A stretch of 64,000 nucleotides of DNA. It comes from Desulfatiglans anilini DSM 4660. Its GTDB lineage: Bacteria; Desulfobacterota; DSM-4660; Desulfatiglandales; Desulfatiglandaceae. Under the pieces are notes generated by a model. It was not told the DNA's origin. It did not search any database and saw only the letters and a list, made by a program, of their open reading frames with translations. The stretch covers positions 1 to 64,000 of the forward strand of contig NZ_AULM01000014.1 in assembly GCF_000422285.1 (NCBI RefSeq). The letters are read 5' to 3'. Below, one piece after another: positions 13,362-33,943 of the stretch (position 1 is its first letter; each line of letters opens with the position of its first letter). The position numbers and the translations under genes are program-made.

Positions 13362-15317
13362 ATGAAGGATACCCAATCCGCCGGAATGATCTATGATTTT
13401 CTGAAAACCGTTCCACCGTTCCATCTCCTGCCCGACGCGGAGATTCGGGACCTCTCGCGCACCTTAACCCTGGAGCACTTTCATCCTGATCAAGTGATCC
13501 TCAGCCCCGGCTCCCCCCCGAACCAATTCCTGTACCTGATCCGCTCCGGCGAGGTCCGGCTCATCCCTTTCGGGGGTCGGAAGGAAAGCGCCGGGCCTGT
13601 GGTCGACATGCGCGGAGAAGGGGAGTTTTTCGGCTTTTTCAGCCTCCTCGGCAACCGGCCGAGTCCTTTCACCATCGTCGCCGAACGGGACACCATTTGC
13701 TTTCTCCTCGGCAAGGCCAGCTTCCTCCGGCTCCTCGACACCTATCCCGATGTCCTCCTGTACTTCACCATGGGCCCCAGCAAGGGCTTCAAGGCCCCCG
13801 TCCCGGGAAGGCCGGCGGAAGGGAGTGCCGCAGCGCCTTCCGGGCCGGAGCCGGACATCCTCTTTTTTTCCGCCCGCGTGCGGGACATCATGCATCCCCA
13901 CGTGGCGGTCTGCCCGGACAACGAATCCGTCGTGGCGGCCGCCCGCCTCATGACCACGCGCGGGGTCGGGTCCCTGGTCGTCGTCGACCCGGCGCAGAAG
14001 CCCATCGGGATCCTGACGGACGGGGACCTCCGACGCAAGGTGATCGCCTCGGGGGAGCTGAAGGATGTCCCCGTCAAAGGGGTCATGAGCCATCCCCTCT
14101 CGGCGGTGCCGCCCGACGCCTTTCTCTTCGATGCCATCCTCCTCATGATCCGCAAACGCATCAAGTACCTGCCCGTCCTCCAGGGACAGGACCTGGCGGG
14201 AATCCTCTCCGAGCGGGACCTCATGATCTCGCAGGGCAACAACCCCGTCGCGATCATCCGCCGCATCCAGCAGGCGCCGGACCTCGAGGAGCTCGTTCTC
14301 ATCCGCAAGGAAATCACCCACACCCTGAAGGTGATGCTCGAGCGCGGCGGGCAGGCGCGGGAGATCTGCCAGCTCATCACCCAACTGAACGACCACCTCA
14401 CGGTCCGGATCATCGAACTGGCCGCGGGGGACCTCGACCGGGAGGGTCGGAAGGCCCCCCCGCTGCCTTTCGTCTGGGTGTCCCTCGGAAGCGAAGGGCG
14501 CCAGGAGCAGACCCTCTCGACCGACCAGGACAACGCCCTGATCTTCGGCGATTCCGACCCCGGCTCGGAGGCGGACGCAAAGGCCTATTTTCTGGTCCTG
14601 GCCGAGCGGGTGGTCTCCGGCCTCGAACGCTGCGGCTTCCCGCGCTGCAACGGAGACATGATGGCCTCGAACCCGCAGTGGTGCCAGCCGCTCAGGGTCT
14701 GGAAGGACTATTACCAGAAGTGGATCTTTCAGCGGGACCTCTCGGCCCAGGACATCCTGATCTCGTCCATCTTTTTCGATTTCCGGGCCATCTACGGACC
14801 GGAGAGCCTTCTGAACGATCTGATCGCCTCCATCAAGGCAGCCATCCCCGAGAGCAAGGTCTTCCTGCCTCACATGGCCCTGCGCTCCCTGGAGCTGCGG
14901 ACGCCGTTGAGCTTCTTCAACCGGCTCGTGGTGGAACGGTCCGGACAGTACAAGAACCGCCTCAACATCAAACGCCACGGCCTGATGCCGCTGATCGACG
15001 CCGTCCGCATCCTGTCCCTCGAACAGGGGATCTTCCGGACCAACACGCTCGACCGCATTGCGGCCCTGATGGAAAGGGACATCTTCGCCCCGGGGGATGG
15101 GAACAACCTGCGGGAGGCCTTCAACCTCATGATGCTCCTGCGGCTGCAGCACAACCTCGAACAACTGAACCAGGGCGAGCAGCTCGACAACTACATCGAA
15201 CCTTCGGAACTGAGCACAATCCAGCGGTCCAATCTGAAAATGGCCTTCAAGGCCATCGACCGCCTGCAGAGCCAGATCGAGATCCGCTACGGCCTGACGA
15301 CCCTCAGGAAACGGTGA
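13362..15317 (+). CDS. cNMP-binding/CBS/nucleotidyltransferase signalling protein, paralog 1
   Basis: A 651-aa cytoplasmic signalling protein. It has a cNMP-binding-like beta-roll (about residues 15-135), two CBS domains (about 170-295, starting VRDIMHPHVAVCPDNESV), a DUF294 nucleotidyltransferase-like domain with GSEGRQEQTLSTDQDNALIF (about 376-395), and a helical DUF294 C-terminal domain. The GS and DQD residues of the transferase site are intact. The CBS pair is expected to bind adenine nucleotides or similar ligands; no target is known from sequence. The ribosome site GGGGGAGAG precedes the ATG. It heads a same-strand run to 24833 and has paralogs at 21592 and 25626. The 230-bp spacer before it shows nothing I recognise. 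Confidence 0.85.
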   Translation: MKDTQSAGMIYDFLKTVPPFHLLPDAEIRDLSRTLTLEHFHPDQVILSPGSPPNQFLYLIRSGEVRLIPFGGRKESAGPVVDMRGEGEFFGFFSLLGNRPSPFTIVAERDTICFLLGKASFLRLLDTYPDVLLYFTMGPSKGFKAPVPGRPAEGSAAAPSGPEPDILFFSARVRDIMHPHVAVCPDNESVVAAARLMTTRGVGSLVVVDPAQKPIGILTDGDLRRKVIASGELKDVPVKGVMSHPLSAVPPDAFLFDAILLMIRKRIKYLPVLQGQDLAGILSERDLMISQGNNPVAIIRRIQQAPDLEELVLIRKEITHTLKVMLERGGQAREICQLITQLNDHLTVRIIELAAGDLDREGRKAPPLPFVWVSLGSEGRQEQTLSTDQDNALIFGDSDPGSEADAKAYFLVLAERVVSGLERCGFPRCNGDMMASNPQWCQPLRVWKDYYQKWIFQRDLSAQDILISSIFFDFRAIYGPESLLNDLIASIKAAIPESKVFLPHMALRSLELRTPLSFFNRLVVERSGQYKNRLNIKRHGLMPLIDAVRILSLEQGIFRTNTLDRIAALMERDIFAPGDGNNLREAFNLMMLLRLQHNLEQLNQGEQLDNYIEPSELSTIQRSNLKMAFKAIDRLQSQIEIRYGLTTLRKR

Positions 15318-15355: not shown

Positions 15356-17233
15356 ATGGAAACGCCTTACTGGGCCGATGACTACCGCAGCAAGCTCACC
15401 TCTCCCGAGGAGGCCCTTCGCGCCATCCGGCACGGTCAGAGGGTCTTCATCGGGTCCTCCTGCGGCGAGCCCCAGTGCCTGGTCCGCGAACTGGCCAGCA
15501 AGGCCCACCTCTTCGGGGACATCGAGATCGTGCGTCTCCTCAGCATGGAGAGTTCGCCGCTCACCCGGATCGCCGCCAGAAGCGGCGGCGACTGCTTCAA
15601 CATGCGCTCCTTCTATCTCGGATCGGGGAAGACCCGGACCCTCGAGCGCAACCGCCGCTTCATCACCCCGATCAACCTCTCGGCGGTGCCGCGCCTCCTC
15701 CGAAGCCGGCAGATCCCGATCCATGCCGCCCTGATCCAGGTCTCTCCGCCGGATGACTTCGGCTGGATGAGCCTCGGCATCTCGGTCGACATCACACTAG
15801 CGGCGGCCGAGGCAGCCTCCCTGGTCATCGCCCAGGTCAACCCCAGGATGCCGCGTGTCCTGGGCCACAGCTTCATCCATGTCAACCGGGTCGACCGGAT
15901 TGTCGAATGCGAGGAGGATCTCCTGACCATCGCCGACCCGCCGGGCCTCGAAGCCGCCAGACAGATCGCCGGGCACACGGTCAAGCTCATCGAAAACGGA
16001 GCCACCATCCACATCGGCCTCGGCGCCGCCCCCCAGGCGACCCTCGCGGCCCTTACCGACCGGAAGGACCTCGGGGTCCACAGCCGTTTCCTGACCGACG
16101 GCATGATGAAGCTGGTCGGCCTGGGGGTGATCACCAACCGGCGCAAGGGATACAACAACGGCAAACTCGTGGCGAGCGCCGCCATCGGCTCCAAAGACCT
16201 TTACGCCTTCATCAACGACAACCCGTGCATCGAGTTCCGCCCGTCCGACTACGTGAACCGGCCGTCGATCATCGCGCGGCACAACCGGATGGTGGCCCTC
16301 AACGTGGCCACCGCCATGGACCTCACCGGCCAGGTTGCGGTCGACGCCATGCCATACAACAATCTCTCCGGCGTGACCGATATCATGGATTTCATCCGGG
16401 GGGCGGCGGAGGCCCCCGAGGGGAAATCCATCCTGATGCTGCCGTCGACCACCCTCGACGGAAAGCAGAGTCGGATCGTCCCCACGCTGGACGACACGGC
16501 TGTCGTCGTGCCGCGCGGCGACGTCCAGTACGTGGTGACGGAATACGGGATCGTCAATCTGTTCGGAAAAAGCCTCCAGGAGCGGGCGGTGGCCGTCATC
16601 AGCATCGCGCACCCGGATTTCCGCGAGGACCTCTTCTATCAGGCCCGGCAAAAGGGCCTGCTCGCTCCCGAGCAGACCCTGAGCGCCTCCATCTTCGGGG
16701 TCTACCCTGTAAAGCTGGAAGAGGCCCACGACATCGCGGGCGAACGCGTCCTGATCCGGCCCACCAAGCCCTCCGATGAGCGGCTGATCCAGGAGCATTT
16801 CTACAACATGGACAAGGAGGACCTCGTCTTCCGCTTCATGCACGAAAAGCCGCTCTTTCCCCGGCGCGACGTGGCCGAGATGTACCACATCGACTACATC
16901 AAGAACCTGACCCTCCTGGCGGTGACGGGCGAAATGGGATTCGAGACCGTCATCGCCATCGGCGGCTCGTTCTTCCACCCGGCCCGCAATGAAGCCGAGG
17001 TCGCCTTTTCGGTCCTCAAGGACTGGCAGGGGAAGGGGATCGGCACCATCCTCATCCGAAAACTGGCCGAAGCCGCCCGCGAAAGCGGTATCGCCGGCCT
17101 AAGCGCGTACACGATGCCCCAGAACCAGAAGATGATCAAGCTGTTCCACTCACTGCCCTACAAGGTCCACACCTTTTTCGAGGAAGGAACGCTGTGCCTC
17201 ACCTGCCGGTTCGACGAACCGGCGGAGGGATGA
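15356..17233 (+). CDS. Acetyl-CoA hydrolase/CoA-transferase fused to a GNAT domain
   Basis: A 625-aa two-domain protein. Residues about 1-440 form an acetyl-CoA hydrolase / 4-hydroxybutyrate CoA-transferase unit (FIGSSCGEPQCLV, HIGLGAAPQATLAAL, and TEYGIVNLFGKSLQERA). Residues about 462-620 are a GNAT acetyltransferase with the acetyl-CoA motif WQGKGIGTILIRKLAE. The first part moves CoA between acids; the second probably acetylates a protein or small molecule. GTG 15314 overlaps the previous stop (GTGA) with AGGAAA upstream and is an alternative start adding 14 residues. Nearby acyl-CoA synthetases and an AcuC-like deacetylase make Lys-acetylation of Acs a fair hypothesis, but it is inference. 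Confidence 0.88.
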   Translation: METPYWADDYRSKLTSPEEALRAIRHGQRVFIGSSCGEPQCLVRELASKAHLFGDIEIVRLLSMESSPLTRIAARSGGDCFNMRSFYLGSGKTRTLERNRRFITPINLSAVPRLLRSRQIPIHAALIQVSPPDDFGWMSLGISVDITLAAAEAASLVIAQVNPRMPRVLGHSFIHVNRVDRIVECEEDLLTIADPPGLEAARQIAGHTVKLIENGATIHIGLGAAPQATLAALTDRKDLGVHSRFLTDGMMKLVGLGVITNRRKGYNNGKLVASAAIGSKDLYAFINDNPCIEFRPSDYVNRPSIIARHNRMVALNVATAMDLTGQVAVDAMPYNNLSGVTDIMDFIRGAAEAPEGKSILMLPSTTLDGKQSRIVPTLDDTAVVVPRGDVQYVVTEYGIVNLFGKSLQERAVAVISIAHPDFREDLFYQARQKGLLAPEQTLSASIFGVYPVKLEEAHDIAGERVLIRPTKPSDERLIQEHFYNMDKEDLVFRFMHEKPLFPRRDVAEMYHIDYIKNLTLLAVTGEMGFETVIAIGGSFFHPARNEAEVAFSVLKDWQGKGIGTILIRKLAEAARESGIAGLSAYTMPQNQKMIKLFHSLPYKVHTFFEEGTLCLTCRFDEPAEG

Positions 17234-17469: not shown

Positions 17470-20430
17470 ATGTTCAAGGGGTGGTTCATTTCCCTGATCG
17501 TGATGGGCAATCTGACGGCCCTTTTCCTCGTCGCCTATTACGCCGAACGGCGCGAGCGGAAAGGGAAGAGTCTGGTCGCGAACCCCTATGTCTATTCCCT
17601 CTCCCTGGCGGTCTACTGCACCTCCTGGACCTTTTACGGCAGCGTGGGCGAGGCGGCCACCTCGGGGCTGTCCTTTCTGCCGGTCTACCTCGGCCCCACC
17701 CTGATGTCGTGCCTCTGGGGGGTCCTCCTGATCAAGATCATCGTCATCGCGAAGCGCCACCGCATCACCACCATCTCGGATTTTCTGAGCTCCCGCTACG
17801 GGAACTCGCTCTTCATCTCCATCCTGGTCACCCTGGTCTCGCTGATCGGCATCACCCCCTATCTCGGGCTCCAGATGAAGGCCATCCTGAACGCCTTCAC
17901 GATCCTTGCCGGCGAGTCGCGGGGCATCACCGCCACCGGATGGGTGATCACCCTGGTCCTCGGCGTCTTCGCGGTCATCTTCGGCGCGCGCCGCCTGGAT
18001 TCGTCCGAACGGCACGGCGGACTGGTCCTCGCCATCGCCTTCGAATCCCTGGTCAAGCTGGTCGCCTTCCTGGGCGTCGGGATCTTCGTCACCTACGGGC
18101 TCTTCGACGGCTTCGGGGAGATCTTCAGCCGCATCCAGGCATCGGACCAGGGGCACCTGATGACGATCGGCGAGGGGTCCACCGTCAGCTATCTGGAGTG
18201 GTCCTCGCTCCTTTTCCTCTCCATGATGGCCGTCCTCTTCCTGCCCCGCCAGTTCCAGATGGCGGTGGTGGAAAACGCCGATCCCTCCCACGTCTACAAG
18301 GCCATGTGGCTCTTTCCGCTCTACCTCCTGCTGATGAATATCTTCGTCCTGCCGATCGCCTTCGGGGGGATCCTCCTCGGCAGGCACCAGGCGGAGGCCG
18401 ACACCTTCGTCCTCACCATCCCCCTGACCCAGGGCAGCCCCGCCCTGGCCCTCCTGGTCCTGATCGGCGGCTTTTCGGCCGCCAGCGGCATGATCATCGT
18501 GGAATCCCTGGCCTTGAGCACCATGGTCATGAACAGCCTCGTCATGCCGGCCATCTTCCGCTTCCGGCAGATCAGGGGGTTTCCCGCGCTGATCCTGAAC
18601 ATCAAACGCTTCATCATCATCGGGTGCGTTTTCCTCGGCTATTTCTTCGCGGTCTTCATCGGCCGCTTCTACACACTGGTGCAGATCGGCCTCAAATCCT
18701 TCGAGGCCGTCACGATCTTCGCCCCGGCCTTCATCCTGGGCCTTTACTGGAAGAAGGGCAACAAGAAGGGGGCGATCGCCGGCATCCTGGCCGGCTTCGG
18801 TGTGTGGACCTACACCCTTCTGCTGCCGGCCCTCATCCGCGCGCACGTGCTCCCCGACGAATGGGGCGCCCAATCCCTGATGCAGAACGTGTTCCTGAGC
18901 CCCAGGGCCCTCTTCGGACTCGAAGGGCTCGACAAATGGAGCCACTCCCTCTTCTGGGGGCTGCTCTTCAACGTCGTCGCCTACATCGGGGTCTCGCTCG
19001 CCACCGCCAAGCGCGGGGAGGAAGAGCGGCAGGCCCTGCTGTTCGTGGAGGCCTACGACCCGGCGCTGGTCTCCCCGAAGAGCCTTTACAGCATCGAACA
19101 GATCGAAGCCATCCTCGAGCAGTACATCGGCAGGCAGGAGGCGTCCGATGTCATCGGCCGCTTCATGGCCCGACACGGGATCGAGCGCGGAGCGATCAGC
19201 CGGGACGATTTGATCCGCCTGCGGGACGAGGCCAAACGGATCCTGTCCGGGGCCCTCGGATCCTCCATGGCCGCCATCCTCTTCGAGGACAAATCGATCC
19301 TCACCGAAAAGGAGCGGGACGAGCTTTCGAGCTCCGTCAAGATGATGACCGACACGCTGCGCCTGTCCCGCCACGAGCTGTCCGAGGCCAACCGGAACCT
19401 GGCCTACCTCAAGGCCTTCAGCGAAAACATCATCGAAAGCGCCCCCTTCGGGATCGTGGCCGTGGACGCCCACCTCCACGTCACCTATTGGAACCGGGAG
19501 ATGGAGACGCTGACGGTCATCCCCAAGGCGGCGGCCATCGGCCGGCCGGTCCAGCCCCTGATCCCCTGGATCCCCGAGGAGACCTGGACCCTTGGAAAGC
19601 AGCAGGAACGGACGGTGGAATCGCCCGCCCTGCAGCACATCAAGATCAACATCAGTCCGTTCAAAGACCCCTCCGGCGGGCTGGTCGCCATTTTCGAAAA
19701 CATCACCCAGAAGAAGATCATGGAAAAGCAGCTGCTCCAGACCTCGAAGCTGGCGAGCCTCGGCAAACTGACGGCCGGCATCTCCCACGAGATCGGCAAC
19801 CCGCTCGCCTCGATCAGTTCACTGGTGCAGGAGCTCCAGTCCCTCGAACTCCGCAGCGATCAGGATGTGGCCTTCACGCAGGAGTCCCTGAACAACATCA
19901 ACGGACACCTGGCCCGCATCTCCAAGATCGTCCGGAGCCTCGGCGATTTCGCGCGCCTTTCCTCTTCCGAAAAGGTGCCCACCGACATCCCCGGGCTGGT
20001 CGAGCAGACCGTCAATCTCCTCAAATACGACAAACGGTCGCGGAAGGTGGAGTTCGTCACCCGGATGGGCAAGATCCCCCAGCTCCGCGTCAATCCCGAC
20101 CAGATCCAGCAGGTCTTCCTGAATCTCATGCTCAATGCCGTCGACGCGATGCCGGAGGGCGGCAGGCTCGAGGTGTCGATCGAGGACAAGGACCGATGGA
20201 TCGACATCCGCTTCCGGGACACCGGGAGCGGTATCGACGAATCGCTGATCGACCGCATCTTCGACCCCTTTTTCTCCACCAAACCCATGGGCAAAGGCAC
20301 CGGCCTCGGGCTGAGCATCTGCTACGGCATCATCAAGGAGCACAACGGGAGCATCAGCGTCAGAAGCAGCAAAGGGAACGGGACCAGCTTTGAAATCAGG
20401 CTGCCAAAAGAGGAGGCATCACATGGCTGA
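17470..20430 (+). CDS. Sodium:solute symporter / sensor histidine kinase hybrid (CbrA-like)
   Basis: A 986-aa inner-membrane protein. Residues about 1-560 form a sodium:solute symporter with 12 or more helices. A linker and PAS domain follow (about 640-750, IIESAPFGIVAVDAHLHV), then HisKA with His773 in GISHEIGNPLASISSL, and HATPase_c (about 840-985) with NAVDAMPEGG, DTGSGID and GKGTGLGLSI. It should sense or co-transport a solute and phosphorylate a response regulator. The next gene's start overlaps its end (ATGGCTGA), making that degenerate regulator an obvious partner; the intact regulator at 23490 is another. The solute is unknown; acetate or another organic acid is suggested only by context. 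Confidence 0.92.
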   Translation: MFKGWFISLIVMGNLTALFLVAYYAERRERKGKSLVANPYVYSLSLAVYCTSWTFYGSVGEAATSGLSFLPVYLGPTLMSCLWGVLLIKIIVIAKRHRITTISDFLSSRYGNSLFISILVTLVSLIGITPYLGLQMKAILNAFTILAGESRGITATGWVITLVLGVFAVIFGARRLDSSERHGGLVLAIAFESLVKLVAFLGVGIFVTYGLFDGFGEIFSRIQASDQGHLMTIGEGSTVSYLEWSSLLFLSMMAVLFLPRQFQMAVVENADPSHVYKAMWLFPLYLLLMNIFVLPIAFGGILLGRHQAEADTFVLTIPLTQGSPALALLVLIGGFSAASGMIIVESLALSTMVMNSLVMPAIFRFRQIRGFPALILNIKRFIIIGCVFLGYFFAVFIGRFYTLVQIGLKSFEAVTIFAPAFILGLYWKKGNKKGAIAGILAGFGVWTYTLLLPALIRAHVLPDEWGAQSLMQNVFLSPRALFGLEGLDKWSHSLFWGLLFNVVAYIGVSLATAKRGEEERQALLFVEAYDPALVSPKSLYSIEQIEAILEQYIGRQEASDVIGRFMARHGIERGAISRDDLIRLRDEAKRILSGALGSSMAAILFEDKSILTEKERDELSSSVKMMTDTLRLSRHELSEANRNLAYLKAFSENIIESAPFGIVAVDAHLHVTYWNREMETLTVIPKAAAIGRPVQPLIPWIPEETWTLGKQQERTVESPALQHIKINISPFKDPSGGLVAIFENITQKKIMEKQLLQTSKLASLGKLTAGISHEIGNPLASISSLVQELQSLELRSDQDVAFTQESLNNINGHLARISKIVRSLGDFARLSSSEKVPTDIPGLVEQTVNLLKYDKRSRKVEFVTRMGKIPQLRVNPDQIQQVFLNLMLNAVDAMPEGGRLEVSIEDKDRWIDIRFRDTGSGIDESLIDRIFDPFFSTKPMGKGTGLGLSICYGIIKEHNGSISVRSSKGNGTSFEIRLPKEEASHG

Positions 20431-21589
20431 AACCATACTCATCGTCGAAGACGAGGACACCCTCAGGGAATCTCTCACCCGGGTCTTTGAGCGGGAGGGC
20501 TACGAAGTCGTCCCCGTGAGCAGCGCGGAGCCGGCCATGGAGCTTTTCGAGGAGGGCTCCTTCGACCTGATCCTGACCGACATCATCCTTCCGGGGATGA
20601 CGGGGATCGAATTGATCAAGCGCGTAAAGGAGGCCGCACCCGAGCAGGCCTGCATCGTCATGACCGCTTACGCCTCGCTCGAGACGGCGGTCGAAACTCT
20701 GCGAGCGGGGGCCTATGACTACATCGTCAAACCGATCATCCACGAAGAGATCAAGCAGACCGTTCGAAACGCCCTCAAACTGAGGGCCCTGCAGGAGGAG
20801 AACGCCCAACTGCGCGAACAGGTCGCCGGCTATTATGACACCCGGCACCTGATCGGCGCCCACCCCGCCATCGCGTCCGTCCGGGACCGCGTCCACAAGG
20901 TGGCGGAGGCCAGGAGCCCCGTCCTTTTAACCGGCGAGATCGGGACCGGCAAGAAGCTCGTCGCCCGGATGATCCATGAAGCGGGATCCAGGATGCGCCT
21001 GCCTTTTCTCGAGGTGCACTGCGAGGCCCTGTCGCCCGCCGGGCAGGAAGAGGCCCTGTTCGGCGGGCGAGGAGCCCAGGGTCCGCAGGGTCAGACGGGC
21101 GCCCGCGGCCTCCTCGAAAGGGCCCGGGGCGGGACGGTCTACCTGAACCGCGTCGACGCCCTCGCCCTTCCCGTCCAGCAGCTGCTGCTCTCCGTCCTGT
21201 CAGAGGGCCGCATCCGCCCGGCCGGCGGGGGGGCGGACACGCCCTTCGGGGCGCTCATCATCTCCGGAACGGAGAAGGGCCTCGGAGCGGCCGTTGCGGA
21301 AGGCCGGTTCCTCGGCGCCCTCCAGCAGCGGCTGCGGGTCGCTGAGCTGCAGCTGCCGCCGCTGCGCGAACGGGGGGAAGACATCCAGGAACTGGCCGCT
21401 TTCTTCGTGAGCCGTTACAACCGCGCCTTCGGCAAGGCCGTCGAGGGCCTCGCCCCGGAGGCCTGGGCCCGGTTGCAGGCCTACGCATGGCCCGGCAATG
21501 TGCTGGAACTCAGAAACCTTCTCGAGCGGGCCGTTCTGCTCACCCGGAACGGCCGGCTCCAGCCGGCGGACTTTCCGCCCCTTTCGTAA
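20423..21589 (+). CDS. Response regulator with degenerate NtrC-type AAA+ domain and no HTH
   Basis: A 388-aa protein. The receiver domain is intact: acidic DED cluster, phospho-Asp53 in LTDIILPGM, Thr in MTAYAS, Lys in VKPI. The AAA+ part keeps Walker A (GEIGTGKK, 171-178) and the NtrC layout (PLRERGEDI, AWPGNVLELRNLLERA). It lacks the sigma-54-contacting GAFTGA loop, replaced by GGRGAQGPQGQTGARG. Its Walker B reads GGTVYLNRVD instead of LDE, and the protein stops without a DNA-binding HTH. It should accept phosphate but not activate sigma-54 transcription. GAGGAGG precedes the ATG, and it overlaps the kinase gene. It is a close paralog of the regulator at 23490. Confidence 0.88.
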   Translation: MAETILIVEDEDTLRESLTRVFEREGYEVVPVSSAEPAMELFEEGSFDLILTDIILPGMTGIELIKRVKEAAPEQACIVMTAYASLETAVETLRAGAYDYIVKPIIHEEIKQTVRNALKLRALQEENAQLREQVAGYYDTRHLIGAHPAIASVRDRVHKVAEARSPVLLTGEIGTGKKLVARMIHEAGSRMRLPFLEVHCEALSPAGQEEALFGGRGAQGPQGQTGARGLLERARGGTVYLNRVDALALPVQQLLLSVLSEGRIRPAGGGADTPFGALIISGTEKGLGAAVAEGRFLGALQQRLRVAELQLPPLRERGEDIQELAAFFVSRYNRAFGKAVEGLAPEAWARLQAYAWPGNVLELRNLLERAVLLTRNGRLQPADFPPLS

Positions 21590-21591
21590 TC

Positions 21592-23490
21592 ATGCTGACA
21601 GAAGACGTTATCCGGTTTCTCTCGGGGGTTCCCCCTTTCCAGTTCCTGGACAGAGGGGAGATGGAGCGGGTGGCCAGGGATGCCTCTCTGGAATTCTATC
21701 CCGTCAACACACTGATTCTCAAACAGAACGGGCCCCCCAGCGACGCCCTGAGGGTTATCAAGAAGGGGGCGGTCAAGGTCGTCATCGAGGGGGATGAAGG
21801 GGAGGAAATCGTCACGGAGTACAAGGGCGAAGGGGACAATTTCGGGTTCCTGTCCATGATCGGAAAGGACCGCCAGCGCACCACGGTCAAGGCCATCGAA
21901 GACACCCTCTGCTACATCCTGAGCAGGGAGCGGGTCCAGCGGCTCCTCGAGTCCAGCCCGGCCTTCGCCGAGTATTTCCTGTCGTACCTGTCCCGTTACG
22001 TCGATCGGACCTCTCAGGAGATGCGACGGCGAAGCCAGCTCCAGAGCGCACACGACCGGCTCCTCTTCACCACGCCGGTGGGGAACATCGCCATGGACCT
22101 GATCACGGTGCCCGGGTCCATCTCCATCCAGGAAGCCGCCAGAACCATGGTCAGACACCGGATCAGCTCGCTCGTCATCCTGAACGAGCACAACCTGCCC
22201 ACGGGCATCGTAACCGACCGCGATCTGCGCGAGAAGGTCGTGGCGACGGGGCGAAGCGTCTCGGAGCCGGTCCGGAACATCAGCCACCTCGCCCTGATCC
22301 GGGCCGACGGAAAGGGATCCTGCTTCGAGGCCCTCATGAAAATGATCCAGTACAACATCCACCATCTCCTCGTGGTGGAGGAAGGCGAAATCAAAGGGAT
22401 CATCACCAACCATGACCTCATGCTGCTCCAGGGGACCTCCCCTGTCTCCTTCGCGAAGGACATCCTCCTCCAGGACAGCCTGGAGGGGCTGATCCCCCTG
22501 ATGTCGAAGGTCTTCAACGTCATCGGGCTGCTGCTCAAGGAAGGCAGCCACTACGCCCAACTCGCGGGCATCATCTCCGAGATCTACGACCGGCTCATCC
22601 GAAGGGTCCTCGAGCTGACCGAAAAGGAGATGGGGCCGCCGCCGCTGCCCTATTGCTGGGTGGCCCTCGGAAGCGAAGGGCGCCGGGAACAGATCTTCAA
22701 GACGGACCAGGACAATGCCCTCATCTACTCCGACCCGGCCACCCCCGGCGAGGAGATCGACGCAGCGGGCTATTTCTCCGTCTTCAGCAACCGGGTCAAA
22801 GAGAACCTCGGCTCCCTCGGGATTCCGGCCTGCCCCCAGGGACTCATGGCGGCCAACCCCCGCTGGTGCCAGCCGATCCGGACCTGGAAGGCGGTCTTCA
22901 CCCAATGGATTGCGGAGCCTTCCGAGGGGGACTTGGCGAATGCGCTCAATTTTTTCGACGCCCGGCCGCTTTTCGGCAAGTCCATGCTGTTTCAGGGGAT
23001 CCGAAGCCACATCACGCCCTGGATCGTGGAGGAAGGCGGCGCGTTTCTGAGTGCGCTTGGGCGGCTGGCCGTCAGGACCCCTCCCCCGGCCGGCTTCGTC
23101 GGCAATGCGATCTTCGAAAAAAACGGAGAACAGAGGACGGAGATCGATCTGAAGCGGCGCGGAATCCTCCCGATCGTCGACCTCGTCCGGCTGTTCGCGC
23201 TCTCGATCGGTCTTCCGGAAACCGCCACCCTCGGAAGGATCAAGGCCCTGCGCATCAAGGACCCGGCTTTTGCACCGATGGAACGGGAGCTGCTTCACAC
23301 CTTCGAGTACCTGATGCTGACCCTCACCCATCACCAGTATGAACAGATCCGGTTGGGGCTCGCCCCGGACTCCTTGCTGCAGCCCGCGGACATGAGCAGC
23401 CTCGAGAAGAAGACCTTGCGGGAGGCCTTCCGTCTGATCGAGTCCCTGCAGCAACTCGCGCGGGAGCGTTTCGATCCGGGGACGGCCTGA
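21592..23490 (+). CDS. cNMP-binding/CBS/nucleotidyltransferase signalling protein, paralog 2
   Basis: A 632-aa paralog of the protein at 13362, with the same order: cNMP-like beta-roll (about 10-130), CBS pair (about 165-285, including TGIVTDRDLREKVV), DUF294 nucleotidyltransferase-like domain with GSEGRREQIFKTDQDNALIY (about 360-379), and a helical C-terminal domain. The active-site DQD is present. The start follows the previous stop by two bases without a strong ribosome site, so translation is probably coupled. Its stop overlaps the start of the next regulator (TGATG). Sitting between two response regulators, it may modulate the same pathway. Confidence 0.85.
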   Translation: MLTEDVIRFLSGVPPFQFLDRGEMERVARDASLEFYPVNTLILKQNGPPSDALRVIKKGAVKVVIEGDEGEEIVTEYKGEGDNFGFLSMIGKDRQRTTVKAIEDTLCYILSRERVQRLLESSPAFAEYFLSYLSRYVDRTSQEMRRRSQLQSAHDRLLFTTPVGNIAMDLITVPGSISIQEAARTMVRHRISSLVILNEHNLPTGIVTDRDLREKVVATGRSVSEPVRNISHLALIRADGKGSCFEALMKMIQYNIHHLLVVEEGEIKGIITNHDLMLLQGTSPVSFAKDILLQDSLEGLIPLMSKVFNVIGLLLKEGSHYAQLAGIISEIYDRLIRRVLELTEKEMGPPPLPYCWVALGSEGRREQIFKTDQDNALIYSDPATPGEEIDAAGYFSVFSNRVKENLGSLGIPACPQGLMAANPRWCQPIRTWKAVFTQWIAEPSEGDLANALNFFDARPLFGKSMLFQGIRSHITPWIVEEGGAFLSALGRLAVRTPPPAGFVGNAIFEKNGEQRTEIDLKRRGILPIVDLVRLFALSIGLPETATLGRIKALRIKDPAFAPMERELLHTFEYLMLTLTHHQYEQIRLGLAPDSLLQPADMSSLEKKTLREAFRLIESLQQLARERFDPGTA

Positions 23491-24833
23491 TGTCCGAGCG
23501 TATTCTCATCGTCGAAGACGAGGCGGCTCTGTGCGAGTCGTTGCGGCGGGTGTTCGAGCGCGACGGGTACGACGTCTCGACCGCCGGCAACGCCGAGGCG
23601 GGCCTGCTTCTCTACGAGGCGGGGGGGCACGATCTGATCCTCTGCGACATCCTCCTGCCGGGCATGGACGGCATCGAGTTCCTCGAGGCGGTCAGGAAAC
23701 GCTGCCCTGAGCAGATCGTGATCGTCATGACGGCCTACGCCTCGATCGAAACGGCGGTCGGCGCGTTGAGGGCTGGCGCCCACGACTATATCCTGAAGCC
23801 GGTGATCCACGAGGAGATCAAACGCCTGGTCCGGATGGCGCTCCATCAGCGGTCGCTCCAGTCAGAGAATGCGCTGCTCCGCAAACAACTCGAAGAACGG
23901 CACGATTTTCAGAACATCCTCGGCGCGAGCACCGCGATCCAGGGCTTGATCGAACAGGTCAAACGGGTCGCCGATTCACGCAGCAACATTCTGGTCCTGG
24001 GGGAAACCGGGACGGGCAAGGAGCTTTTCACCCGCGCCATCCATCACAACAGCCCGCGGCGGAGCAAACCCTTCATCCCCATCAACTGCAGCGCCATCCC
24101 CGATCATCTGCTGGAATCGGAGCTGTTCGGCTATGTGAAAGGGGCCTTTACGGGGGCGACCCAGACCAAGCGCGGGCTCTTCGAAGAGGCCGATGAGGGG
24201 ACCGTCTTCCTGGACGAGATCGCCGACCTGAGCCCGCACCTCCAGGCGAAGCTCCTGCGCGTGATCGACGACCACGAGATCCGGCCGCTCGGCTCTACCC
24301 AGAGCCGCAAGGTCGATCTCCGGTTCATCGCCGCCACCAACCGGGATGTGATCCAGGCCGTGCGGGAAGGAACGCTGCGTGAGGATCTCTTTTACCGTCT
24401 GAACGTCGTCACCCTGCACCTTCCGCCCCTCAGGGAGCGGAAGGAGGACATCCCCATTCTGGCGGCTCAGTTCATCGCCAAATTCGCCCAGGAACTCGGG
24501 AAGCGGGTCCGCGACCTGGACCCGGCCGCCGCCCGCCTCCTGAGGGAGTACCCCTGGCCCGGGAACGTGCGCGAACTCCAGAACATCATCGAACGGGCCG
24601 TCTTGATCACCGACGGCACATTGATCCGCCCCGGACACCTCCCCGAAGGCCTGAAGACCGGAGGGACGTTCGCCGGCCAGTCTTTGGAGGAGGGCCTTTC
24701 CATCGAGGGCTATACCAAGGCCTTCATCCGCCGTTACCAGGCCACCCTGACCGAACAGCAGCTGGCCGACCGCCTGGGCATCACCCGCAAGGCCCTCTGG
24801 GAAAAGCGCAAGCGCTGGAATCTAACTCGCTAG
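23490..24833 (+). CDS. Sigma-54-dependent response regulator (NtrC family, CbrB-like)
   Basis: A 447-aa transcription activator. The receiver has phospho-Asp53; the AAA+ domain has Walker A GETGTGKE (171-178), the sigma-54 loop GYVKGAFTGATQ, Walker B EGTVFLDEIADLS, and the arginine finger region REDLFYRLNVV. The C-terminal HTH is EQQLADRLGITRKALWEKRK. Phosphorylation by the symporter-kinase at 17470 is likely from context. Targets are unknown; a near-consensus sigma-54 site lies ahead of acs at 30845. The last 4 bp overlap the convergent J-domain gene. Confidence 0.94.
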   Translation: MSERILIVEDEAALCESLRRVFERDGYDVSTAGNAEAGLLLYEAGGHDLILCDILLPGMDGIEFLEAVRKRCPEQIVIVMTAYASIETAVGALRAGAHDYILKPVIHEEIKRLVRMALHQRSLQSENALLRKQLEERHDFQNILGASTAIQGLIEQVKRVADSRSNILVLGETGTGKELFTRAIHHNSPRRSKPFIPINCSAIPDHLLESELFGYVKGAFTGATQTKRGLFEEADEGTVFLDEIADLSPHLQAKLLRVIDDHEIRPLGSTQSRKVDLRFIAATNRDVIQAVREGTLREDLFYRLNVVTLHLPPLRERKEDIPILAAQFIAKFAQELGKRVRDLDPAAARLLREYPWPGNVRELQNIIERAVLITDGTLIRPGHLPEGLKTGGTFAGQSLEEGLSIEGYTKAFIRRYQATLTEQQLADRLGITRKALWEKRKRWNLTR

Positions 24834-25144
24834 TCCTTGTTCGGACCATCGCCCCAGAGGGGGTCTCCGAAGCGCTCGATGAGCCAGTCTTCGGGAGAGA
24901 GATTTTTCCTGATATCGTCTGCTTCGAAGGAATATTGATAATGGTTGCAGTAATCCATGATCTTCCGGTAGGCCTCGATGATCCGGCGGGTCATCTCATG
25001 ACGGGCGTCGGCATCGTCCGCCGAGCGGTCGGGATGCCATTTTTCGAGGAGCATGCGGTAGTGGGTCTTGATCTGCTTCAGGGTCGCCCTTTCCGGCAGA
25101 CCGAGGACCTCTTTCGCGGCAGTGATTTCACGGTATCTTTTCAT
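24830..25144 (-). CDS. J-domain (DnaJ-like) protein
   Basis: A 104-aa single-domain protein. The J-domain runs from AKEVLGLPERATLKQIKTHY through the HPD motif in LEKWHPDRS to RIIEAYRKIMDYC. The tail (SPEDWLIERFGDPLWGDG) is acidic and shows no glycine-rich or zinc domain. It should stimulate an Hsp70 ATPase; the client is unknown. It is the only minus-strand gene inside the 13.4-30.5 kb cluster and separates paralog 3 from the regulators. Confidence 0.82.
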   Translation of the reverse strand: MKRYREITAAKEVLGLPERATLKQIKTHYRMLLEKWHPDRSADDADARHEMTRRIIEAYRKIMDYCNHYQYSFEADDIRKNLSPEDWLIERFGDPLWGDGPNKD

Positions 25145-25625
25145 GAGCGGCTCCCGCCTCCAGACGGCTTTCGGATGAATAGCCGGCTTTTACACCCCCA
25201 TGCCGATCTTGTCAACCAGGCCCCGGTCACGACCCGTCCCCCTCCCCGCCGGTTACCTTTTTTCCTCATTCACCGTCTCATTTGCTACCAAAAGTAACGC
25301 GCTTTCAGGTATCGCCCGACCGGCCGCGATTTCTCCAGGAGGCAGGTCTTTTTCGCCGGCGGACCCATGCGCGGGAGCCGGTTCCACCCTCCGTCCCCGC
25401 ATGTCGCCGGAGGTCGATGCCTGCCCGGATCTCCCGGTGGCGCCCCGCATCCAGGCATCCTGTTACCTTATGTAGCACGACAGGCCTCTTCCCCGGATCC
25501 GGAGAGGCCGCACCGCGGGTCCGAGCGCGCCCTCTTTCAATAAATTGATCAACGATATCGATTCATTACAATTCAAGGGCGCCAAACTCGCTCCCCCGGC
25601 ACAGGAGTTGCTTAACCAATCCATC
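25145..25625. other. Gene-less spacer with a pair of GTTAC/GTAGC dyads
   Basis: I see no gene. Two 15-bp dyads face each other: GCTAC-N5-GTAAC at 25284-25298 and GTTAC-N5-GTAGC at 25462-25476. Their outer pentamers are exact reverse complements of each other. They lie about 150 and 330 bp before the ATG at 25626 and could bind one regulator as an operator pair. No sigma-54 or strong sigma-70 promoter was found. Confidence 0.4.
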
Positions 25626-27530
25626 ATGGACCGGGAAAACATCATCCGTTTTTTGACACGCTCACCGCTCTTTCAGGATCTGGAGCCCGGGGTCCTGCAG
25701 GATCTGGCCGACCGCCTGGAGGTGGAAACCCACCGCGGGGGCAGCGTCATCCATGAACCTGCCGGGCCGCCCGTCGACCGCCTCCGGATCATCAAAGAAG
25801 GGGCGGTCAAGATCACGCTCCCTTTCGGCCGCAACGACGACGCCCTGATCGACTACCGGGGCACCGGTGAGATCCTCGGCTTTCTCTCCCTGCTGACCGG
25901 CGGACGGCCCCGCGGAGAGGCCGTCACCCTTGAAGACACGACCTTTTTCGTGCTCGATCGGGCGACCACCCTGAATCTTCTCAAGAGCCAGCCGGCCTTC
26001 GCCCAGCAGTTCTTCTCGGATTTCTACAACCGTTATGTCCACAAACCCCACCGGGAGATCGGGAAGAAGAAACTCCTCTACGGGGGAGGCGAAAGGCTCC
26101 TTTTCACGACGCCGGTCGGAGAACTGGTCAAACGCGACCTGGTCACCGCCTCCGAGGAAATCTCCATCCGCGAGGCCGCCGAGATCATGATGGCCCGCCG
26201 GATCGGCTCCCTCGTCCTTTTGAACGCGCTCGGTCTGCCGGCGGGGATCGTCACCAACAAAGACTTCCGGGACCGCGTGGTCTCCCGGAACCGGGATGTA
26301 TCCCAACCCGCCCGGCGCATCCAGAGCGTCTCCCTGGTCAAGGCCGAGGCGGCCGAACACTGCATCGAGGCCCTCTTCAAGATGCTGCACTACAACATCC
26401 GCCACCTCCTGGTGGTCGAGGGCGGCCGGCTCAAAGGCATCGTGACCGCCCAGGACCTCCTGCGGCTTCAGGGGACATCGCCGATCGCCATCGTGCAGGA
26501 ACTCGAAAGCCAGCCTTCCATCGACGGCCTGGTGGACCCCGCCGCAAGGATCCAGTCCATGGTCGGCGCCTTCCTCCAGGAGGGGGTCAAGACCAATCAC
26601 ATCCTCAGGATCCTGAACGAGGTGTACGACCGGCTGATCCGGCAGGTGGTGAGCCTGGAGGAACGCCGGCTGGGACGCGCCCCTCTGCCCTATTGCTTCC
26701 TGTCCTTCGGCTGCGCAGGCCGTAAGGAGCAGATCTTTATGCTCCCCCAGCGCAATGCCCTCCTCTTCGCAGACCCTCCCTCCCCGGAGACCGCGGAGCC
26801 CGCGGCCCGCTATTTCGGCGAGCTTTCGGACGCCATTGTACGCGCCCTGGAACGGCTGGGCTTCCCCGCCGGGGGGGGCGGCGCATCCGGCCATGAGGCC
26901 TGCCCCTTCCATTCTTCCACCGCCTGGAAAAACCGCTTTTTCGAATGGATCAAGCGGGCGGACCGCGGATCCATCGAGGCATCCCTGCCGGTCCTCGACT
27001 TCCGCGCGCGCTTCGGCGACGAAACCCTGGCCGAAGACCTGAGAAGCGCGGTTTTCGACCGCATCGCCCGACACGGCGTCTTTCTGAACGTCATGGGCCT
27101 CACGATCGTCAAGACCTCCCCTCCCGTCAGCGCCTTCAAGCGGTTCATTCTCGAAAAGGAAGGCGAACACAAGGGATGTTTCGATTTGAAGCAGAAGGGG
27201 TTGAAACCGCTCGTCGACATGGTCCGCCTGTACGCCCTGGAGGAGGGGATCCGGGAGACCTCGACCTGCGAAAGGCTCGGCGCCCTCAGGGAGCGCTCTC
27301 AGCACCTGCGGCCGCACTGCCAGGAACTGGAGTATGCCTTCGAGATCATGAGCGGCCTCTGGCTTCGGACCCAGCACGAACAATATTCTGCGGGCGCGGG
27401 CACGGCGTCCTCCTTTCTCGATCCGGACCGTCTCAACCGGCTCGAGAAGCAGGCCCTGCGCGCCATCTTCACCTTCATCGCCAAACTCCAGTTTCTCGTC
27501 CAGGAAAGGCACGAACCGATAAAGATCTGA
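25626..27530 (+). CDS. cNMP-binding/CBS/DUF294 protein, paralog 3, with lost transferase residues
   Basis: A 634-aa third paralog with beta-roll, CBS pair (AGIVTNKDFRDRVV, LVVEGGRLKGIVTAQDLL), DUF294 domain and helical C-terminus. The transferase motif is degraded: where paralogs 1 and 2 read GSEGR...TDQDNAL, this one reads GCAGRKEQIFMLPQRNALLF (about 360), losing the serine and both acidic residues of DQD. It is probably a catalytically dead sensor or regulatory subunit. ATG 25626 aligns with the other paralogs; the TTG 81 bp upstream is less likely. The gene is followed after 19 bp by the exonuclease gene. Confidence 0.83.
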   Translation: MDRENIIRFLTRSPLFQDLEPGVLQDLADRLEVETHRGGSVIHEPAGPPVDRLRIIKEGAVKITLPFGRNDDALIDYRGTGEILGFLSLLTGGRPRGEAVTLEDTTFFVLDRATTLNLLKSQPAFAQQFFSDFYNRYVHKPHREIGKKKLLYGGGERLLFTTPVGELVKRDLVTASEEISIREAAEIMMARRIGSLVLLNALGLPAGIVTNKDFRDRVVSRNRDVSQPARRIQSVSLVKAEAAEHCIEALFKMLHYNIRHLLVVEGGRLKGIVTAQDLLRLQGTSPIAIVQELESQPSIDGLVDPAARIQSMVGAFLQEGVKTNHILRILNEVYDRLIRQVVSLEERRLGRAPLPYCFLSFGCAGRKEQIFMLPQRNALLFADPPSPETAEPAARYFGELSDAIVRALERLGFPAGGGGASGHEACPFHSSTAWKNRFFEWIKRADRGSIEASLPVLDFRARFGDETLAEDLRSAVFDRIARHGVFLNVMGLTIVKTSPPVSAFKRFILEKEGEHKGCFDLKQKGLKPLVDMVRLYALEEGIRETSTCERLGALRERSQHLRPHCQELEYAFEIMSGLWLRTQHEQYSAGAGTASSFLDPDRLNRLEKQALRAIFTFIAKLQFLVQERHEPIKI

Positions 27531-27549
27531 AGAGCGGAAGGGGTTTGTT

Positions 27550-28251
27550 TTGATCAACCTTTTCAGGAGAAAGACCCGCAGCGAGCCCGCAACCGGCGCA
27601 GGGGACAGATCGGATCTTCCGGCCCCGGAGGCCTCCTATGTCATCCTGGACACGGAGTTGACGGGCCTCGACCGGAAGCGGGATTCCATCCTGTCCATCG
27701 GCGCCCTCAAGATGGCCGAAGGACGGATCGAGATGGGGCGGACCTTCTATCGTCTGGTCAGACCGGGCAGCGAGATGAAGCACGATGCGATCGTCATCCA
27801 CGAGATCACGCCGTCCGAAGTGGTCGAAAAACCGCTCATCGACGACATCATCTCCGAATTTCTGGCATTCTGCGAAGACGCCGTCCTGGTGGGCCATTAC
27901 ATCAGCATCGACCTCCACTTCATCAACCGTGAACTCAAACGCATTTCGGGCGCATCGCTGACCAACCCGGTGCTCGACACGCTGACCCTCGTGGACTGGA
28001 TCCGCTGGAACACCCCGAACCAGGGGGACGAGAGCTTCACCCCGAAAAACTATCAGCTCTATGAGATCGCCAAGGACCTGGGCATCCCCGTGCAGGGTGC
28101 CCACAACGCCCTGATGGATGCCTTCATGACCGCCCAGGTGTTTCAGCGGCTGCTGCCGCGGCTGGCACGCCAGGGCATCCGGACGCTCGCGGATCTCCTG
28201 CGGGTCGGTAACCCTTCACGGAAACTCAACCAGCCCGGGATGGTGATCTGA
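27550..28251 (+). CDS. DEDDh 3'-5' exonuclease (DnaQ/epsilon-like)
   Basis: A 233-aa exonuclease-fold protein. ExoI has VILDTELTGLD (D and E), ExoII GHYISIDLHFI, and ExoIII GAHNALMDAFMT (His and Asp), so all DEDDh catalytic residues are present. The N-terminal 28 residues are not part of the fold. The start is TTG with GGAAGGGG upstream. Genes of this type commonly sit beside DUF294 proteins and acetate symporters, which suggests a nucleotide-signal or RNA-turnover role instead of replication proofreading; that is inference from context. Confidence 0.85.
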   Translation: MINLFRRKTRSEPATGAGDRSDLPAPEASYVILDTELTGLDRKRDSILSIGALKMAEGRIEMGRTFYRLVRPGSEMKHDAIVIHEITPSEVVEKPLIDDIISEFLAFCEDAVLVGHYISIDLHFINRELKRISGASLTNPVLDTLTLVDWIRWNTPNQGDESFTPKNYQLYEIAKDLGIPVQGAHNALMDAFMTAQVFQRLLPRLARQGIRTLADLLRVGNPSRKLNQPGMVI

Positions 28252-28420
28252 GCGTCCTGAAAGGGCCGGTGCGAGGAATTGGTTCCTGCTTTGGCAGGCG
28301 ATGACATGAGGATGACAAAGGAGGTGATCAAACAAGAGAAGGAGCGGAAGGACGCCTGAGGCCCGCGGCTGCGCCGGGTTCGTAAACGTCCGAACAACCC
28401 ACAGGAAAAGAGGAGGAGTT

Positions 28421-28681: not shown

Positions 28682-28732
28682 CCGTCCCATCCCGTCGGCT
28701 CCCGCCAACCCCAAAGATGAAAGGATAGAGCT

Positions 28733-30538
28733 ATGGGTATCTTAGCATGGACCTGGATCATTGTCGGGTTGTCCTTTTCCTTGTACATCAGCATCGCCAT
28801 ATGGGCCAAAGCCAAAACGACCGGAGACTTTTACGTGGCCGAGCGGCGTGTACCGCCGGTCCTCAACGGCATGGCGACCGGGGCGGACTGGATGTCCGCG
28901 GCCTCGTTCATCTCCATGGCCGGTCTGATCTCCTTCATGGGGCGCGACGGCGCCATGTACCTGATGGGCTGGACGGGCGGCTACGTGCTCCTGGCCATGC
29001 TCCTCGCCCCCTACCTCCGCAAGTACGGGAAGTTCACCGTCCCCATGTTCGTGGGCGAGCGCTACTATTCCAACGCCGCCCGCGTGGTGGCGGTCCTCTG
29101 CGCGATCTTCGTCTCGTTCACTTACGTGGCGGGCCAGATGCGCGGCGTCGGCATCGTCTTTTCGCGCTTCCTGGAGGTCAGCATCAACACGGGGGTCATC
29201 ATCGGCATGGCGATCGTCTTCTTCTACGCCGTCCTCGGCGGGATGAAGGGCATCACCTACACCCAGGTCGCCCAGTACTGCGTGCTGATTGTCGCCTACA
29301 TGCTGCCGGCGATCTTCATCTCCATCATGCTGACCGGCAACCCGATCCCGCAGCTCGGCTTCGGAAGCTCGCTCAGTGAAGGAGGGCAGCAACTGCTGGG
29401 AACGACCGGCGGCTACCTGCTGGACAAGCTCGATCTGCTGCAGCAGGACCTCGGCTTCAAGGCCTACACCGGCGCCGGCGCCAAGAGCACGATCGACGTC
29501 TTCATGATCACCTTCGCCCTGATGGTGGGCACCGCGGGGCTTCCCCACATCATCATCCGCTTCTTCACCACGCCGACCATCCGCGGCGCGCGGGCCTCGG
29601 CCGGCTGGGCCCTCTTTTTCATCGCCCTCCTGTACACCACCGCTCCGGCAGTCGCCTCCTTCGCCCGCTTCAACCTGCTTCTGAGCGTCAACAACAAAGC
29701 CTATGAGCAGGCCCCCCAATGGATCAAGAACTGGTCCAAGACCGGGCTGATCGCTTGGAAGGACAAGAACGGCGACGGCAAGATCCAGTACGCCCCGGGG
29801 AATGCGTTTGCCGGGAAGATCGCCTTTGCCAAGACCCCCGACGGGCAGATGGAGATCGGCCCATACGGTGAGCAGGTGGTCTCGACCCCGCAAACGCCCA
29901 TCGAGACAAGCCGCAATGAACTCTACGTGGACCAGGACATCATGGTCCTCGCCAACCCGGAGATCGCCAGGCTCCCGAACTGGGTGGTGGCCCTGGTCGC
30001 CGCCGGAGGCCTGGCGGCGGCCCTCTCGACCGCCGCCGGACTCCTGCTCGTCATCGCCGCAGCCCTTTCGCACGACCTGATCAAGAGCATCCTCGCCCCC
30101 TCGACCTCCGAAAAAATGGAGCTGGTCTACGCCCGGATCGGCGCGGGGCTGGCGGTCCTCGTCGCAGGCTACTTCGGCATCCACCCGCCGGGGTTCGTGG
30201 CGCAGGTGGTCGCCTTCGCCTTCGGCCTGGCGGCCTCCTCCTTCTTCCCCCTCATCATCATGGGGATCTTCTGGAAGCGGGCCACCAAAGAAGGCGCCAT
30301 CGCCGGCATGATCTGCGGAATCCTCTTCACGGCGATCTACATCATCTATTTCAAATTCATCAACCCTGAACTCAACAACGCCGCCCACTGGCTCTGGGGC
30401 ATCTCCCCCGAAGGGATCGGCACCATCGGCATGCTCATCAACTTCATCGTCATGTTCGTGGTCTCCAAGATCACAAAAGAGCCCCCGCAGGAGGTGCAGC
30501 GGATGGTGGAGAGTCTGCGCTACCCGAGAACCATCTGA
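28733..30538 (+). CDS. Sodium:solute (acetate-type) symporter
   Basis: A 601-aa inner-membrane symporter of the SSS family, ActP-like branch that pairs with DUF4212. About 13 helices are visible. Typical stretches are AERRVPPVLNGMATGADWMS, FVGERYYSNAARVVAV, and AAALSTAAGLLLVIAAALSHD. A long hydrophilic loop (about 325-410) contains WKDKNGDGKIQYAPG, an EF-hand-like acidic stretch. The expected role is sodium-driven uptake of acetate or another short monocarboxylate, which fits acs downstream. Repeat copy F begins 8 bp after the stop. Confidence 0.9.
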   Translation: MGILAWTWIIVGLSFSLYISIAIWAKAKTTGDFYVAERRVPPVLNGMATGADWMSAASFISMAGLISFMGRDGAMYLMGWTGGYVLLAMLLAPYLRKYGKFTVPMFVGERYYSNAARVVAVLCAIFVSFTYVAGQMRGVGIVFSRFLEVSINTGVIIGMAIVFFYAVLGGMKGITYTQVAQYCVLIVAYMLPAIFISIMLTGNPIPQLGFGSSLSEGGQQLLGTTGGYLLDKLDLLQQDLGFKAYTGAGAKSTIDVFMITFALMVGTAGLPHIIIRFFTTPTIRGARASAGWALFFIALLYTTAPAVASFARFNLLLSVNNKAYEQAPQWIKNWSKTGLIAWKDKNGDGKIQYAPGNAFAGKIAFAKTPDGQMEIGPYGEQVVSTPQTPIETSRNELYVDQDIMVLANPEIARLPNWVVALVAAGGLAAALSTAAGLLLVIAAALSHDLIKSILAPSTSEKMELVYARIGAGLAVLVAGYFGIHPPGFVAQVVAFAFGLAASSFFPLIIMGIFWKRATKEGAIAGMICGILFTAIYIIYFKFINPELNNAAHWLWGISPEGIGTIGMLINFIVMFVVSKITKEPPQEVQRMVESLRYPRTI

Positions 30539-30545
30539 GTTTGAG

Positions 30546-30684
30546 TTTCCGGCCGGAAATGGTCTTTTCACCCGATCTCGGCGTCAATCTGCACATTCGC
30601 TTGTGCGGCGGCCTTGAAGGTCGCCTCCGCGCGAACGCTCGATTTCCTTGATCTCGGCTGAAAATCGTCATTTCCGGCTCGAAA
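30546..30684. repeat. Diverged but still palindromic repeat (copy F)
   Basis: This copy has the same outline as 8028-8167 but many changed bases. The ends are GTTTCCGGCCGGAAATG and CATTTCCGGCTCGAAAAC. The centre is GGCGGCCTTGAAGGTCGCC, which still pairs end to end (one G-T). In the arms TTTTCA faces TGAAAA where other copies have TTTTGG/CCAAAA, and TTCGC faces GCGAA where others have TTTGC/GCAAA. These are compensatory changes. It fills the gap between the symporter gene and the acs promoter side. Confidence 0.75.
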
Positions 30685-30844
30685 ACTCCCTCGGGATATC
30701 AACCTTTGTTGTCCGTAAACTCAGGCGCGAATGCTCCCTCGAGCGGAGGGCTTCGAGGCGGCCTCACCGCTCGCAGGCAAGATCATTGCATGTGCCTCAT
30801 CAAAAGAACATCCGGGCGCAGACCCAAGGCTCGATCGAACCTTT

Positions 30845-30860
30845 TGGCACAGATCTTGAC
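30845..30860 (+). promoter_or_regulatory. Possible sigma-54 promoter for acs
   Basis: TGGCAC (30845-30850), five bases, then TTGAC (30856-30860). The -24 half is perfect; the -12 half has TTGA where TTGC is the rule, so activity is doubtful. It is placed about 125 bp before the acs ATG. The nearby sigma-54 regulator at 23490 makes it worth noting. Confidence 0.35.
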
Positions 30861-30983
30861 TCACATGCGAGTTCTCCCTATTTCATCCTTATTCGGTGCA
30901 CCCGGACCAGCCTTAGGCACCGGAAGACCGTGAAGGGCTGTCCGGGCCCTCGACACCCCCATTACGAACAGGAGGCTAACCCG

Positions 30984-32954
<1,971 letters not shown>

Positions 32955-33863: not shown

Positions 33864-33943
33864 ATTAACTGCAGATGGAGAACGCGTTTCTTGCCCCCCG
33901 GATAGAACGCATGCGCAACCAAACGATTTCAAACGGAGGGATT

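Follow-up and report, generated by a model that had tools for sequence, protein, structure and literature searches.

A response regulator gene at positions 20423..21589 of the window (a stretch of 64,000 nucleotides of contig NZ_AULM01000014.1 from Desulfatiglans anilini DSM 4660) encodes a protein of 388 amino acids, here named RR1, that is derived from an NtrC-type activator. As read from its motifs, RR1 is an output-less response regulator, whose receiver is intact but which has no working output domain. Our tentative first choice among the explanations is that a CbrA/CrbS-like acetate kinase has in RR1 a conserved phospho-receiver branch, which acts through contact with another protein, most probably the nucleotidyltransferase (NT) encoded next to RR1, NTa. 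This reading is supported by the retention of receiver chemistry in all ten degenerate RR1-type proteins found, whereas the Walker B aspartate, GAFTGA and the helix-turn-helix (HTH) are absent from all ten. It is further supported by a receiver more conserved than the AAA+ domain, loss of the AAA+ domain in relatives, two clades of accompanying NTs and the tight packing of four genes.

Receiver and output motifs of RR1-type proteins

Pfam analysis of RR1 revealed Response_reg at amino acids 5-114, Sigma54_activat at 143-309 and AAA_lid_14 at 315-386. An earlier note on this DNA had described an intact receiver and Walker A, a Gly/Gln-rich stretch in place of GAFTGA, Asn-Arg in place of the Walker B Asp-Glu and a missing DNA-binding domain, and each of these was found. 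The receiver domain (amino acids 1-120; 20423..20782, on the forward strand like all features below unless stated) retains the phospho-acceptor Asp53 as well as Thr81 and Lys103, and Walker A is kept as GEIGTGK (amino acids 171-177; 20933..20953). The L1 position (21062..21103) is occupied by GGRGAQGPQGQTGA, and the Walker B position (21146..21151) holds Asn242-Arg243. No Pfam domain was found C-terminal of the lid, and RR1 stops about two amino acids beyond it, with the HTH absent.

Further losses were found at the first arginine finger, the sensor I Asn and the sensor II Arg; the arginine-finger motif REDLFYR reads FLGALQQR, with the first Arg gone and the second retained. Sigma54_activat scores 111 bits in RR1 against 235 bits in RR2, the intact regulator downstream, and the best NCBIfam match of RR1 (AtoC, 300 bits) falls under the AtoC cut-off of 714. 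The AlphaFold2 model is confident for receiver, AAA+ domain and lid (mean predicted local distance difference test score 86), with residues 217-225 of the replaced L1 loop disordered. The closest solved structures are NtrC1 (best, 1ny5) and NtrX, with VpsR and FleQ also matched; the AAA+ domain alone matches that of NtrC1 with a template modelling score of 0.90 (target-normalised). From these losses we strongly infer that RR1 would be unable to hydrolyse ATP as an activator, to contact sigma-54 or to bind DNA via the canonical parts.

DNA 3' of the kinase gene was taken from 70 loci and annotated. The fullest shared order was kinase, [RR1-type, NT], RR2, NT, exonuclease and symporter, where the bracketed pair is the RR1 module. 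RR1-type genes stand directly after the symporter-kinase gene, in a slot that holds a degenerate regulator (~355-394 amino acids) or a bare receiver (~120-147 amino acids, 12 cases) or is empty. The ten degenerate regulators come from the window, its sister species G001 and SURF_67 (the window's family) and from seven Nitrospirota loci (L152, L159, L163, L173, L174, L182 and L221).

Asp53, Thr81 and Lys103 are retained in 10/10 of these proteins. The Walker B aspartate is present in 0/10 compared with 62/62 intact paralogs, being replaced by Arg (5) or Asn (5). Exact GAFTGA occurs in 0/10 (the nearest variant is GAFHGA in L152, and the L1 loop is deleted altogether in SURF_67), and the HTH is absent in 10/10. 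The arginine-finger motif is broken in every Nitrospirota member, and Walker A is eroded in L174, L159 and L163. The earlier note had proposed checking whether orthologs share the losses, and they do; regulators with functional AAA+ and HTH domains, which it considered contrary evidence, were found at the level of paralogs only. In genomes without the RR1 module, an intact regulator takes the position directly behind the kinase. A sequencing, frameshift or assembly artefact was rejected because identical losses occur in orthologs from other assemblies.

Both kinds of RR1-type gene occur in L152 (1108-5961), in the order kinase, degenerate regulator, NT, bare receiver and intact RR2. The bare receiver of L161 (1102-1560) adjoins the kinase, with no NT or RR2 within ~10 kb downstream.

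Selection, descent and linkage

Constraint was compared between the window and G001, a one-contig assembly of 4.8 Mb, where RR1 is 94% identical. The RR1 receiver shows no nonsynonymous and 13 synonymous changes; the AAA+ domain shows 25 nonsynonymous and 28 synonymous changes, a ratio below the neutral expectation (p = 7e-5). The ratio of nonsynonymous to synonymous rates (omega) is 0 for the receiver and 0.31 for the AAA+ domain of RR1, compared with 0.06 and 0.02 for RR2. Conservation in Nitrospirota follows the same contrast, with 0.78 for the receiver against 0.49 for the AAA+ domain in RR1-type proteins and 0.73 against 0.76 in RR2. The RR1 receiver is constrained at least as strongly as the RR2 receiver, and its AAA+ domain is relaxed yet maintained. 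Since the receiver counts and the AAA+ test argue that RR1 is no decaying pseudogene, and the reading frame is unbroken in every copy from two phyla, pseudogene status was rejected; the rapid neutral decay envisaged in the earlier note is replaced by purifying selection.

Alpha1 is the main kinase-contact helix of receivers. Its identity between RR1-type proteins and RR2 of the same genome is 60-93% (one misregistered pair was set aside), whereas none of the further window-genome receivers included in the comparison exceeds 33%. Among residues mapped to kinase contacts of Spo0F, RR2 ranks first against RR1 (67%), a merely supportive result as the next paralog is near (57%). The alpha1 similarity is consistent with one kinase being shared by RR1 and RR2.

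Analysis of the receiver tree placed the seven Nitrospirota degenerate copies and the bare receivers of L172, L161 and L166 in one clade (100/99), within which L172 is separate from the L161/L166 pair, some inner forks being weak. The AAA+ domain was deleted inside the degenerate lineage at least once, and probably twice, leaving receivers only. These three loci retain the kinase, and L172 and L166 also retain the NT and an intact RR2. The nine remaining bare receivers group in another part of the tree (97/87), as a second, receiver-only lineage that, on this placement, arose independently. The window trio (window, G001 and SURF_67) is a clade of its own on a long branch. The approximately unbiased (AU) test rejected a grouping of the trio with the RR2 clade (p-AU 0.009, the group being chosen post hoc), and with it a recent duplication of RR2 within the window lineage as the source of RR1.

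The NT tree was more informative on common origin. NTs that follow degenerate RR1s, including that of the window, group with the L172 and L166 partners in a clade of 12 (100/100), and a separate clade of 7 (100/100) is made up of the partners of seven of the nine remaining bare receivers. The window RR1 module is thus most likely the Nitrospirota module, and a similar pairing evolved on another occasion. RR1 probably descends from an NtrC-type activator whose gene underwent duplication within an acetate-utilisation cluster of the symporter-kinase (CbrA/CrbS-like) kind.

The kinase was found in 3/85 genomes of the window's class, which limits RR1 orthologs elsewhere in that class, and in 2/395 genomes sampled from the window's phylum compared with 77/395 Nitrospirota. 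The rarity of the kinase cluster (17470-30538) in its own phylum and its frequency in Nitrospirota suggest a likely horizontal transfer, in a presumed direction.

Of the loci that have an RR1-type gene, 19/21 carry an NT between the kinase and RR2, compared with 0/45 of those that have none (Fisher p = 1.2e-14, from counts made by hand from the locus annotation and with a test that ignores phylogeny), and 19/19 of these NTs retain the G(S/T)EGR...DQD motif. A functional tie between RR1 and the NT is argued from the fact that no locus retains the NT in that place without an RR1-type gene. The sharing of losses with another phylum, beside one sensor and usually an NT, which is a putative modifier of proteins, suggests that the sensor signal is routed elsewhere than to DNA.

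Besides the nature of the Fisher test, several points weigh against a partnership of RR1 with NTa. L171 and L161 have receiver-only RR1-type genes without an adjoining NT. In many loci an NT also stands after RR2, so the linkage of RR1 and NTa may stem from tandem duplication of a regulator-NT block, an origin that could by itself account for the first linkage, and linkage alone is insufficient to prove contact. A common origin for the degenerate regulators of the trio and of Nitrospirota is drawn from the NT tree and not from the regulator tree, where a single origin of all ten copies is not rejected (p-AU 0.25).

The kinase cluster and its acetate neighbourhood

The presumed cognate kinase (17470..20430) carries SSF (SLC5-type symporter), PAS, HisKA and HATPase_c domains by Pfam, and this fusion of SSF to PAS-HisKA-HATPase is of the CbrA/CrbS type. 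It has no C-terminal receiver, and no STAC-domain match was found between its SSF and kinase parts by the Pfam scan, the only way in which STAC was looked for. Its end overlaps the start of RR1 by 8 nucleotides, in agreement with the direct coupling of these genes noticed earlier. NTa (21592..23490), a cNMP-CBS-CBS-DUF294 protein by Pfam with an intact GSEGR...DQD motif, begins 2 nucleotides past the RR1 stop and overlaps RR2 by 1 nucleotide. RR2 (23490..24833) is an intact sigma-54 activator by Pfam and motif check, with receiver, GAFTGA, DE, arginine fingers and a Fis-type HTH, although its HTH_8 match of 21.2 bits is slightly below the cut-off of 22. Since RpoN is encoded in the window genome, RR2 could serve as an ordinary sigma-54 activator. 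A scan of the window for sigma-54 promoters gave matches no more frequent than chance and did not locate RR2 targets.

Downstream lie a second DUF294 protein, NTb (25545..27530), which has lost its active-site residues (GCAGR...PQR; Pfam and motif check), a DEDD 3'-5' exonuclease (27550..28251) that is a conserved part of the cluster, and a VC_2705-family sodium/solute (acetate-type) symporter (28733..30538; TIGR03648, 860 bits against a cut-off of 321). They are followed by an acetyl-CoA synthetase-type enzyme (30648..32954; Pfam ACAS_N and AMP-binding) and a second one (33875-35854). A third DUF294/CBS/cNMP protein (13362-15317) precedes an acetyl-CoA hydrolase/transferase (~15377-17233) that carries a fused GNAT acetyltransferase domain. 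By analogy, the symporter, the two synthetase-type enzymes and the hydrolase/transferase match the acetate role of CrbS/R.

A small DnaJ-domain protein is encoded on the reverse strand at 24830-25144, overlapping the end of RR2 by 4 nucleotides and 93% conserved in G001. The NTb residues are lost in G001 as well (TQR) and differently in SURF_67, and a similar loss was found in several single-copy Nitrospirota NTs. Antiporter-like genes stand between kinase and RR2 in L153, L154, L157, L158, L160, L164, L165 and L168, which lack RR1, and also in L156. These genes resemble Na+/H+ or cation/proton antiporters, with three or more kinds recognised by eye (NhaD-, NhaA- and CPA-like), and fit a sodium-coupled acetate system.

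Candidate roles of RR1 and comparison with known systems

In the favoured explanation the kinase, most likely the one that serves RR2, would pass phosphate to RR1, and the phosphorylated receiver would contact the co-translated NTa, as the linkage in two independent lineages suggests. The kinase would then drive a transcriptional branch through RR2 and a post-translational branch through RR1 and NTa, with the residual AAA+ domain probably serving as a scaffold that some relatives discarded. Phosphorylation of RR1, the choice of NTa as its partner and the direction of control are predictions. A precedent is the single-domain EpsW: once phosphorylated, it enhances the activity of an enzyme, and apparently does so by touching it directly (PMC12802240).

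A phosphate sink or sequestration of the kinase, in which RR1 has no downstream partner and competes with RR2 for the kinase, setting a threshold or hastening shut-off, is somewhat unlikely in our judgement. Such a role would agree with strict conservation of the receiver alone, an AAA+ domain dispensable in some relatives, the position of RR1-type genes beside the kinase and an alpha1 that matches RR2, and sinks and sequestering regulators are documented (PMC4214558, PMC10368727). However, it leaves unexplained both why two independent lineages of RR1-type genes come with an NT that no locus keeps there in their absence, and why in the window lineage the AAA+ domain is still folded and subject to purifying selection.

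Rather improbable is the formation of mixed oligomers, in which RR1 would pair with RR2 through the receiver alpha4-beta5-alpha5 face, the linker or the AAA+ domain and block or tune the ATPase ring. Degenerate regulators share 65-89% alpha4-beta5-alpha5 identity with RR2 of the same genome, RR1 retains Walker A and the AAA+ fold, an intact RR2 accompanies every degenerate RR1 whose contig extends far enough, and paralogous activators are known to interact (PMC9542535). A role in the ring is nevertheless not general, as L172, L161 and L166 have had the AAA+ domain deleted and the independent receiver-only lineage is without one; this weakens the AAA+ ring version of the poisoning idea in the earlier note. 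With arginine fingers and Walker B lost, contacts in trans would also be one-sided, and the NT is left unexplained. Mixed oligomers with RR2 could still form at the receiver level, but an effect on the AAA+ ring would not be general. A decaying duplicate that is heading for loss and has no present function is very improbable: the relaxed AAA+ domain (omega 0.31 against 0.02) and its loss in relatives would fit, but the receiver has an omega of 0, the AAA+ domain is constrained, frames are intact across two phyla and the coupled gene order is retained.

More broadly, and with greater doubt than we attach to the phospho-receiver branch itself, we propose that the symporter-kinase directly controls a DUF294/CBS/cNMP NT through an output-less receiver. 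Acetate uptake would then involve a pathway from phospho-signalling to nucleotidylation, which had two separate evolutionary origins and reused a pseudo-activator AAA+ domain as a scaffold. Output-less receivers and DUF294/CBS/cNMP NTs both lack a general explanation, and here they share one conserved four-gene unit under a symporter-kinase. The series, in which a pseudo-activator stands between the full activator and the bare receiver, indicates how a transcription activator can become a non-transcriptional signalling part, and the arrangement makes control of an NT by a two-component kinase testable. Contact between RR1 and NTa, if true, would raise the interest of the finding. The earlier note had recognised the output loss, which orthologs share, and the kinase coupling; the strongest association, that with NTa, went unseen there. 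No paper on an arrangement of the RR1-NTa type was found in the searched open-licence literature, in which this conserved variant of known parts is undescribed.

Comparison with the NtrC-family activators AtoC, NtrC1 and CbrB revealed the same order of receiver, AAA+ domain and lid in RR1; however, without GAFTGA, the Walker B DE, the first arginine finger and the HTH, the known activator mechanism would be closed to it. VpsR and FleQ, like RR1, are AAA+ regulators that depart from the sigma-54 norm, but they retain DNA-binding domains. FleT is likewise a protein of the activator family without DNA binding; it lacks both R and D domains (PMC7175178), whereas RR1 has a receiver and has lost its AAA+ active site. 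EpsW-EpsZ resembles RR1 in an intact receiver, the absence of DNA output and a proposed action by direct contact (PMC12802240), but EpsW is a single domain, while RR1 and the degenerate members retain a defective AAA+ domain, and the partner of RR1 is only proposed. CbrA/CbrB and CrbS/CrbR share with the window a symporter-type sensor fused to a kinase. CrbS/R was studied in Pseudomonas with actP, acs and a cNMP/CBS/NT gene of unknown role (PMC5715377), and this set of acetate transporter, Acs and cNMP/CBS/NT gene is also found in the window. In CrbS the extra receiver is fused to the kinase (PMC5715377), whereas in the window the extra output-less regulator is separate and paired with an additional NT.

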